Assembly (NCBI GenBank): GCA_007449985.2
Contig: VIIQ02000208.1
Coordinates: 1-64,000 of the forward strand
Length of the DNA: 64,000 bases
Reading direction: 5' to 3'
From: Desmodesmus armatus
Taxonomy: Eukaryota; Chlorophyta; Chlorophyceae; Sphaeropleales; Scenedesmaceae
Positions 22,780 through 35,522 of this stretch are shown here, in pieces. Numbering within the stretch: position 1 is the stretch's first letter; every line of letters begins with the position of its first letter. The notes under the pieces were generated by a model that was not told the DNA's origin, made no database searches, and was given only the letters and a program-made list of their open reading frames with translations. The position numbers and the translations under genes were made by a program.

Positions 22780-25700
22780 GCATGATGGCTCCCTCAAGGA
22801 TTGGTTCCAATGGTACACCAGCTGGGCTCTACCAGGACTTGGTGAGTGAATGACAGCAGCAGCAGCAGCAGCAGCAGCAGCAGCAGCAGCAGCAGCAGCA
22901 GCAGCAGCAGCAGCAGCAGCAGCAGGCGCAGGCGCAGTAGGGGCAGCAGGCAGCGGCAGCAGCAGCAGTGGTACATGGTACACCAGCTGGGCTGTACCAG
23001 GACTGGGTGAGTGACTGGCAGGACAACAGCAGCAGCAACAGCAACAGCAGCAGCAGCAGCAGCAGCAGCAGCAGTGGTTTGCACACAGTACACTAGCTGG
23101 GCTGTACTGGGACTGACACTGGGTGTGTGGCTGGCCGGGCAGCAGCAGCCGCAGCGGCAGCGGCAGCGGCAGCGGCAGCGGCAGCGGCAGCGGCAGCGGC
23201 AGCGGCAGCGGCAGCGGCAGCGGCAGCGGCAGCGGCAGCGGCAGCGGCAGCGGCAGTACACTGGGCTTTACCGGGACTGAGTGAGTCAGCAGCAGTGACA
23301 GCAGCAGGGTGACAGTGGCAGTTGCACAGCTGCATCAAGAAGTTGTCCTGCATAAGCAGAGCGGGGTTGATGCATCAACAAGTGGCACAGCAGCAGCCAG
23401 AGGCGCAAGAGCAGCAGCAGCAGCAGCAGCAGCAGCAGCAGCAGCAGGCGGCGGCAATGCAGCAGATGGAGCGATGGTTGTAGAGGGATGAGTCGCACTC
23501 AGTATGATCTTTCTGCATGTGTCAGGCCCTGCAGTAGCAGCAGCAGCAGCAGCAGTAGCAGGAGTAGCAGCAACAGCAGCAGCAAGCGGCACCGCAGCAG
23601 CACGAAATGCAGCAGTGGCTGTAGGCGGATGAGGCGCATTCACGCTGATCTTCCTGCATGTGTCTAATCTTGCAGAGTAGCAGCAACAGCAGCAGCAGCA
23701 GTGACTGTAGGCGGGCTGGCACCCTCAATCCAATCCACCACCCATGCGTCATGAGTTGTAGAGCAGCAGCAGCAGCAGTGTTAACGGCCGTCACTGCAGC
23801 AGCAGAGCAGCAGAAGCAGCAGCTGTGCATTGCTGACAGTCAACCACTGTGCACAGTTGCGCTTACTTGTGACCCTGTACATTGTGACCCACTTCTGCTG
23901 CTGTCATGTTGCAGGCATGTTCAGTGAGGCCTACATCATCTTCTCCCTTGGGTTGACCAAGCCGCTTCAGAAGGCCATGTTCCCCACATGCTTTGGCACA
24001 TACACAGACTGCCCCCTGCAGCTGACACAAGTGCAGGTAACGTGTGTTTTAGGGGGAGGGGAGCGAAAGCGGGGGGGAGGGGGGGGGGGGACAACTGGAG
24101 GGGGGGGGGCACGATTTTGGGGGGGGGGGGGGGGGGAGCAGCATTGGTTGACCATTGTGACTGCAATGCACATCTACTGGGTTGGCCAAGCCGCTTCAGA
24201 AGGCCATGTTTCCAACATGCTTCAGCACGTACACAGACTGCCCCCTGCAGCTGACACAAGTGCAGGTAACTTGTTCTTTAAGGGGAAGGGGGGAGGGGCG
24301 AAAGCGTGGAGGGGGAGGGGGGGAACACGACTGGAAGGGGGGGGGCAGGGGGGGGGGGGGGGGGGGGGGGAGGCAGCATTGGTTGACTATTGTGACTGAA
24401 ATTCACACCTTCTGGGTTGACCAAGCCGCTTCAGAAGGCCATGTTCCCCACGTGCTTCGCCACATGCACAGACTGGCCCCTGCAGCTGACACAAGTGCAG
24501 GTAACTGGGGTGTGTGAGAGGGGGGGGGGGACTTGCATAGTATGTAGGGTTTCCCAGCTCGAATTGCATGCAGTCTAATTCACAGCCCTCTGTGTCAATA
24601 CACAGACTGCTTTTACCAGCTCGGGGGCCTGGGGCGTGGGAGACAGACTGCCCCCTGCAGCTGACACAAGTGCAGGTAACTGGTGTGTGTAGACACAGGG
24701 AGTGCATCCAGCCAATGCAACCATCCAAGGATGTGACATTTCGAAGTTGGGTATAAGCGCGTGGGCCGCCCAGTAAGATTCGTATTCAATCATGAATAAT
24801 AAAATAAAACTGTGTGTGTGTGGGGGGGGGGGGCAGCATGTCACAACTGGAGTTGCATGCATTCACTACTACTACTACCCTACTTCACATATACCCATGT
24901 CAACTCATGTGTCAACACAGACTGCCGGGATCAACGGCCCCTGGGGAGGGGGGGGGGGGGGGGCACTGCTTGCTTCATACACACATACATGCATGCTGCA
25001 CCCTGTACCCAAGCAGCTGCTTGTGTGCCCCCTGTCTTGCTGCAGAATTACATCCAACTCATTGGCAGTATCAAACTCGTCCCCCGCTCCTCAATAGTCC
25101 CAAGGATCATGTGTGTGCCCTGAAAAGTGCTAAGACTGCTTGTCTGTGCCTTGTGCTGCTGCAGAACTACATCCAAATCGTTGGGATCATTGTGGGCATG
25201 CTGCTGTTTGGAGCGCTGGTGAGCCCCGGCACTGCTGCAACTGCTGAGCCCTACTAAACCCTAAACCCTAAGTGTTTCAAAGGCTTGCCTCATATCCTAC
25301 AGTACAGCTATCCGAGCGCTCGTTGCGTTGCCTTGAGTGCTTCGTTCAGGCAGTTATTGCTTTATAAACTGTTATCTTTCTAGCTCCGGGCGTGGGTGAC
25401 AGTTACAGTTACAGTATTTGGCATGGCAAGCCGTGCAACCTGCAAGGGAGACAGAGGCTCTTGGGGTGATAAGGACAAAACCATCACTCGCCAAAGTGCG
25501 ATCAAGAAAGCTCAACTCACAGTACCACACTGAGTGAGTAGCCCGTGAGCCTCTGGCTCCCCTGTGGGTCGCTAAGGTTTGGTGGCCACCATCCCCCCAT
25601 AAACCCCATCCTGAGTGCATGCCGTTCCTCCTCCCCTCGTTTTGTACTACACACTTGGCAACTTGGCAAGTTATTTAGCAAACAATATGTCACTTGTACG

Positions 25701-35522: not shown

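Follow-up and report, generated by a model that had tools for sequence, protein, structure and literature searches.

What kind of process leaves degraded pieces of a gene's own exons in the introns beside them? The question is raised by a locus of the green alga Desmodesmus armatus, in a window of 64,000 nucleotides (the whole stretch of DNA that was analysed) on contig C204 of an assembly of 115.8 Mb in 831 contigs. A 14-exon gene at 22780..35522 on the plus strand was identified from splice signals, frame, translation and homologues as an H+/phosphate symporter of the MFS. Its protein matched Sugar_tr (PF00083, E 4e-30) and also MFS_1; among named homologues the closest comes from Tetradesmus obliquus (71% identity over 86% of the query), and further homologues bear the name proton/phosphate symporter. 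A 5′ exon with the start codon was looked for and not found. The exons, placed by splice signals and frame, are as follows:

22780-22841, plus strand, symporter exon 1
23915-24036, plus strand, symporter exon 2
25165-25218, plus strand, symporter exon 3
25901-26037, plus strand, symporter exon 4
26748-26871, plus strand, symporter exon 5
27816-27995, plus strand, symporter exon 6
29850-30029, plus strand, symporter exon 7
30987-31041, plus strand, symporter exon 8
31655-31749, plus strand, symporter exon 9
32100-32250, plus strand, symporter exon 10
32895-32966, plus strand, symporter exon 11
33194-33366, plus strand, symporter exon 12
34716-34799, plus strand, symporter exon 13
35216-35522, plus strand, symporter exon 14

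Thirteen of these exons are in frame. By the frame of its homologues, exon 7 (29850-30029) should extend two bases further at its 3′ end, so the reading frame is broken there in the assembly; an error of sequencing, genuine damage or unusual splicing could account for the missing bases. The downstream copies described below carry longer versions of this exon 7 edge.

Self-BLAST of window positions 20001-38000 returned 57 pairs, 56 direct and 1 inverted, and local pairs (<4 kb apart) across the whole window were direct in 99 cases and inverted in 2. The degraded copies in adjoining introns that an earlier note had described from the letters of the sequence are real. That note had counted ten or more affected exons, a figure that comes down to 9 of 14 when its two lists are united, while the lists themselves were reproduced exactly: upstream copies at exons 1, 3, 4, 5, 6 and 7, and downstream copies at exons 1, 2, 5, 6, 7, 10 and 12. 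These copies lie as follows:

22512..22579, plus strand, exon 1 upstream copy with acceptor and exon 5′ part (self-BLAST, alignment)
22975..23307, plus strand, three exon 1 downstream copies amid CAG repeats
24178..24690, plus strand, three exon 2 downstream copies, beginning with a unit of about 229-235 bp in exact tandem
25017..25065, plus strand, exon 3 upstream copy with 20 exon bases and the acceptor side
25732..25821, plus strand, exon 4 upstream copy (self-BLAST, alignment, exon-versus-intron screen)
26622..26668, plus strand, exon 5 upstream copy (self-BLAST, alignment, exon-versus-intron screen)
27041..27374, plus strand, two exon 5 downstream copies
27685..27767, plus strand, exon 6 upstream copy, a 92-bp tandem unit
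28185..28870, plus strand, four exon 6 downstream copies, three of them joined to poly-G tracts
29129..29228, plus strand, exon 7 upstream copy, 93/94 exon bases identical, with a (CA)n tract between it and the exon
30197..30540, plus strand, two exon 7 downstream copies counted, with a weak third at 30371-30395
32318..32606, plus strand, three exon 10 downstream copies
33461..34557, plus strand, six exon 12 downstream copies, most beginning at poly-G tracts

The list of copies was compiled manually, by reading and from self-BLAST, and the total of 59 in six genes given below is therefore not exhaustive; copies number 1 to 7 per border. For the symporter, 30 copies entered the count of differences, 29 the polarity alignment (30350-30420 left out) and 28 the lineage analysis (30350-30420 and 23240-23320 left out). 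The introns contain other repeats as well. About 110 bp of intron 3 (25396-25510) match dozens of genome sites at 79-94% identity, as a short interspersed repeat would, and are present also at C204:83206-83320. The (CA)n tract between exon 7 and its upstream copy spans about 470 bp (29254-29724). Beyond the gene, 38000-53500 holds open frames that by eye resemble reverse transcriptase and leucine-rich-repeat proteins, and no local direct duplicates were found in 40,001-52,000, the stretch with the reverse-transcriptase-like frames.

All six upstream copies of the symporter keep the acceptor AG. Of its 23 downstream copies 18 keep the donor GT; in one it is altered, in one only half of it is aligned, and three have no alignment there, which makes 18 of the 20 with scorable bases. 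Retention was counted in the symporter only, because elsewhere the exon ends are approximate. The decoy splice sites whose accumulation had been proposed are thus present as sequence, in the form of putative sites.

A search of the genome with the T. obliquus protein found the symporter locus and one paralogue (L045), on C104, which is 71.6% identical to the symporter over 497 residues and shares 9 of 13 intron positions with it. The paralogue holds five copies at four borders, against 29-30 copies in the symporter. Mg-chelatase H on C223, rebuilt from overlapping loci, has 22 exons when read against an algal homologue, and five of their borders carry copies. Of the 15 kinesin genes, only C66 has copies, at five of its borders; the other 14 have no duplicate over an exon match. 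The kinesins were 12 taken by ascending contig order with at least 3 exon matches (C18, one long open frame, was left out) and 3 added later (C159 was left out for size); in one locus, L076, a 121-bp duplicate lies beyond the last exon match and may or may not be a border copy. An exon edge of a cullin gene, recognised with Pfam, is duplicated with its donor in L002. Two neighbouring genes in the window, for which Pfam and NCBIfam gave no match above cut-off, are also affected:

55220..58260, minus strand, unnamed gene, from open reading frame and splice signals only
58080-58260, 56400-56475 and 55220-55310, minus strand, upstream copies in that gene
57590-57725, minus strand, downstream copies in that gene
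60560..63250, plus strand, unnamed gene, from open reading frame and splice signals only
60787-62159, plus strand, seven downstream copies of one exon edge in that gene
62654-62939, plus strand, two upstream copies of its exon at 63009

Among 25 arbitrary loci (L001 and L007, on the window's contig, and L016, which overlaps L014, were left out), 8 had at least 5% of their length in local direct duplicates, which in one of the 8 (L015) are mainly CAG/CCA repeats. With the paralogue, Mg-chelatase H and kinesin C66 affected, and local duplicates at these 8 loci, the trait extends beyond a single gene and varies patchily from gene to gene or region to region. Another CobN/Mg-chelatase-like gene, a diverged one, was seen at G000:C475:1-14971; its segments have the top local-duplicate coverage (0.21-0.56), and an exon edge is repeated downstream.

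Polarity and completeness were scored mainly in the four genes anchored by homology (the symporter, its paralogue, Mg-chelatase H and kinesin C66). "Upstream" and "downstream" are labels by place; polarity was judged by the exon end that a match contains. In these genes 45 copies were aligned. The 34 downstream copies reached the exon 3′ end in 32 cases and held the 5′ end in none; the 11 upstream copies reached the 5′ end in 10 and held the 3′ end in none. Adding the two unnamed genes brings the totals that reach the expected end to 40/43 downstream and 14/16 upstream, figures kept apart from the main ones because in those genes (14 of the 59 copies) the true exon was chosen by the analyst and polarity is partly circular; exon ends there and in kinesin C66 were set to within a few bases. 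As the earlier note had said, no complete extra exon was found (0 of 59 copies in six genes).

An exon-versus-intron screen, modelled on the published screen for exon stuttering and controlled with shuffled introns, gave 26 proximal matches in the symporter; 18 lay within 1 base of the expected border, with polarity right in 18 and wrong in 0. The 6 shown of its 17 distal matches all pair the exon 14 CAG tract with the intron 1 CAG tract. The screen missed the weak exon 3 upstream copy, for which the evidence is a self-BLAST match (E = 1e-6). Across the four anchored genes there were 42 proximal matches; in 30 the offset from the expected border was at most 1 base, with polarity right in all 30 and wrong in none, and the same screen on 7 unaffected kinesin genes gave 0 matches. 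Copy sources lay within 1 base of an exon border in 54/59 cases by gapped alignment and 30/42 by blastn-short, which clips matches. The strict polarity that had been claimed thus holds, but not as an independent oddity: tandem duplication across one splice site leaves a partial copy on that side, so that polarity supports this geometry and poses no second mystery. Chance similarity was rejected by the shuffled controls, and exon shuffling or whole-exon duplication by the absence of complete copies. Insertion of a transposon or introner was rejected because each copy is specific to its gene and lies nearby; across the genome, protein matches to each exon are confined to the symporter locus or the paralogue.

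Duplication of whole units predicts that the intron stretches following a copy and following its exon are alike, and these intron portions were compared. They matched beyond 200 shuffles in 18 of 33 comparisons. The exon 2 array is an exact tandem, in which 139/141 intron bases match the next unit and the units abut exactly, and at exon 12 the tail of one copy matches 92/94 bases. In the other 15 comparisons the match is limited to the exon edge and a few intron bases; the exon 5 copy at 27041 and the exon 7 upstream copy have exon edges 95-98% identical and no intron match. Fast turnover of G-rich intron explains some of the missing matches, and short repair patches may lie behind others. Repeated tandem duplication of junction-spanning segments, the process originally suggested, is accordingly borne out in its local, direct character and in the exact exon 2 tandem, but as duplication of whole units in only 18/33 comparisons.

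The idea that this is a route for intron growth fared well. Symporter introns with copies average 1,038 bp (n=9) and those without copies 402 bp (n=4). The mean intron is 842 bp in the symporter and 404 bp in the paralogue, and total intron length is 10,947 bp against about 5,250 bp, so that the two differ by about 5,700 bp; introns at the nine positions common to both genes add up to 7,953 bp and 3,965 bp. Copy-bearing spans, set by hand from the border to the last copy, make up 5,854 of the 10,947 bp (53%), approximately the whole excess over the paralogue.

Duplications in the symporter were grouped into 13 junction-spanning families, 3 intron-only families (unit at least 28 bp; one of the three comes from self-BLAST, and shorter mini- and microsatellites were not counted) and 0 whole-exon families. 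Random placement of units of the observed lengths would put 23% across one border, 68% in intron and 8% over a whole exon. The excess of junction-spanning families has a P of about 1.5e-6, or 0.026 if intron-only families are six times harder to see. Possible sources of this excess are introns that were short when the events occurred, recognisability preserved by the exon, and a mechanism that prefers borders. The unusual part of the phenomenon is its scale together with this excess of junction-spanning over intron-only duplications.

Compared with their exons, the 30 symporter copies have 83 synonymous and 56 non-synonymous differences, 5 that create stops, and 14 gaps in the exon part; exon-part divergence ranges from 0 to about 17%. 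With the paralogue as outgroup (28 copies), exon lineages carry 15 synonymous and 6 non-synonymous changes, and copy lineages carry 27 synonymous and 34 non-synonymous changes and 4 stops. Judged from these substitution counts, the exon is kept by selection and the copies decay. The earlier claim that the intact exon is retained stands in this respect, but exon 7 is two bases short as assembled. The synonymous share in the copy lineages is 42% versus 27% expected under free decay (P = 0.011); either the copies are not decaying in a strictly neutral way or so distant a paralogue polarises the changes imperfectly. At the protein level, the symporter differs alone from T. obliquus at 71 sites and the paralogue at 36 (P = 0.0009). 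The same count against three other homologues gave 56 versus 38 (P = 0.08), 52 versus 36, and 65 versus 35 (P = 0.004).

Coverage by local duplicates rose with G/C runs of at least 9 (Spearman 0.64 in 50 segments, which are not independent since many adjoin one another; in the 25 arbitrary loci 0.51, P = 0.009) and showed no association with GC content (rho -0.21, P 0.14, in the 50 segments; about 0 in the arbitrary loci). G-runs of at least 6 occurred in the 30 bases before 13/43 downstream copies, versus 4.1 expected, in a count where copies within one array are not independent. These runs come from only two of six genes, the unnamed plus-strand gene (6/7) and one other (7/23), with none before the 13 copies of the remaining four, and poly-G as a universal join point is for that reason not supported. 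C-runs were found at 2/16 upstream copies (P = 0.085). At the break of downstream copies the exon has a G-run of at least 3 in 17/43 cases versus 10.2 expected (P = 0.013), and several copies at exons 12 and 6 join poly-G directly at an exon G-run. Exon C-runs at the break of upstream copies gave no signal (3/16 versus 3.7 expected). Template switching led by G-runs is a lead, not a result.

Could the arrays be an assembly artefact, with haplotypes or mis-joined reads stacked in tandem? Such a reading can point to the many homopolymers and CA/CAG tracts and to exon 7, whose two missing bases could be a sequencing error. But the copies diverge in graded steps, several unrelated genes on different contigs are affected, mis-joining would not yield polarity anchored on borders, and no second contig carrying the symporter gene was found in the assembly; an artefact is hardly credible. 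It is also very improbable that the copies serve as exons, whether alternative or tandem. Although most symporter copies keep GT or AG and changes in the copy lineages are somewhat more synonymous than free decay predicts, both exon ends are held by no copy, stops and gaps interrupt the copies, and GT retention is probably about what exon-part divergence alone would leave. Selection for the copies as exons is likewise unsupported by the stops and gaps, with the lineage synonymous excess leaving some room for it.

Two further readings accept the duplications and place them differently. In the intron-gain model of Rogers, tandem duplications created the introns rather than lengthened them, as a junction-crossing duplication did in a potato gene according to the text cited here (PMC4974935), and 4/13 intron positions do differ between the paralogues. 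Gain, loss or shift could each account for these four; in one pair, between exons 7 and 8, the introns of the paralogues are about 10 bases apart, which may reflect an intron shift. Because the other 9/13 positions are shared with the compact paralogue, those introns predate the present arrays, and creation of introns is quite unlikely as the general account. That many copies are instead short templated insertions at breaks, made by synthesis-dependent strand annealing, would suit the 15/33 comparisons confined to the exon edge and a few intron bases, and repair-mediated duplications of nearby DNA are known in vertebrates (PMC2671141). We regard this as rather unlikely on the whole: random patches would be neither anchored at borders on the matching side nor all direct, and Table 2 of that paper has only 4 partial exon/intron donors and includes an exon duplicated in inverted orientation.

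The pattern in the symporter has a name. It had been thought to lack a named description at gene-wide scale, but Hron et al. 2026 (Genome Biol Evol, PMC12954441) named "exon stuttering" on the dot chromosomes of chicken, where 115 genes and 236 introns show a lateral exon part that has been copied, along with its splice site (donor or acceptor), across the intron beside it. Apart from gerbils (data not shown), they found it in no further vertebrates, and they leave the mechanism open. The alga is alike in that lateral exon parts and the adjacent splice site are copied into the neighbouring intron, in direct, imperfect tandem clusters. Coding exons stay intact in chicken; in the alga 13 of 14 read in frame, and exon 7 is short as assembled. 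The copied exon part measures 20-187 bp in chicken and 15-157 bp (median 63) in the alga, and sources lie within 1 base of a border in more than 90% of chicken cases compared with 54/59 by alignment and 30/42 by screen in the alga. Copies per border number 1-44 in chicken and 1-7 in the alga. Chicken stuttering has a GC-rich location, whereas the alga shows association with G/C homopolymers instead of GC. A paralogue elsewhere is typically free in chicken, although this is not a strict criterion, whereas the algal paralogue is affected, to a lesser degree. Fast protein evolution of the affected gene is a hypothesis in chicken and is represented by one paralogue pair in the alga. In chicken, intron length also varies between individuals (all from the same text of PMC12954441).

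Related processes share some of these features. Single border-crossing tandem duplications are a known route to new introns (PMC4974935, and Hellsten et al. 2011 as cited there). Like the algal arrays, the intron gain in the potato RdRp gene involved tandem duplication across an intron-exon boundary, an upstream exon piece becoming intron; as far as that source is used here, those are single events that make a new intron, whereas in the alga existing introns were lengthened many times. The repair-mediated duplications of Pace et al. 2009 (PMC2671141) resemble the algal copies in being local, up to 619 bp long and sometimes inclusive of splice sites. Unlike the algal copies they are mostly non-coding, single and not fixed in orientation, and the portion of that paper cited here reports no gene-wide border arrays. 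Introns of T. obliquus (mean 462 bp) are longer than those of the other Sphaeropleales tabled alongside in PMC5966456. A literature search found no paper besides PMC12954441 that uses the term "exon stuttering" and no algal or plant report of the pattern, which is weak evidence of absence since subscription papers and preprints lay mostly outside the search.

We conclude that the phenomenon is very probably exon stuttering, the serial, local and direct duplication of short pieces that cross exon borders. Read from the assembled sequence, the copies are local, direct in orientation, anchored at borders, never complete exons, decaying, in some cases exact tandems, and spread over several genes. 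The symporter gene is a real and strong case in a green alga, a wide taxonomic jump from birds, and its correlate, G/C homopolymers, differs from the one proposed for birds. Duplication would probably proceed by template switching in replication or repair. A piece crossing the donor would leave an extra copy downstream, and one crossing the acceptor an extra copy upstream; as the outermost intact exon would still be spliced, each event would be near neutral and the extra copy would decay in the intron. Repeated events at one border would build an array and a longer intron, duplicated pieces inside an exon would be purged by selection, and G/C homopolymers may act as stall or join sites.

A wider reading is possible, and we offer it tentatively. 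Exon stuttering may be a general, recurrent route to intron growth that arose independently in a green alga. Its trigger may be G-runs after donors (on the coding strand) or C-runs before acceptors, from which the growing strand would jump back to an exon G-run, border-spanning pieces being preferred over intronic ones and each jump adding a decoy splice site.

For the biology of stuttering, the algal case means that neither dot chromosomes nor a very high GC content is needed, and it makes G/C homopolymers a testable correlate. If this species or a relative is in culture, the alga would offer a fast-growing, single-celled system in which events could be observed. The finding bears on how introns lengthen and on why decoy splice sites abound in some genes.
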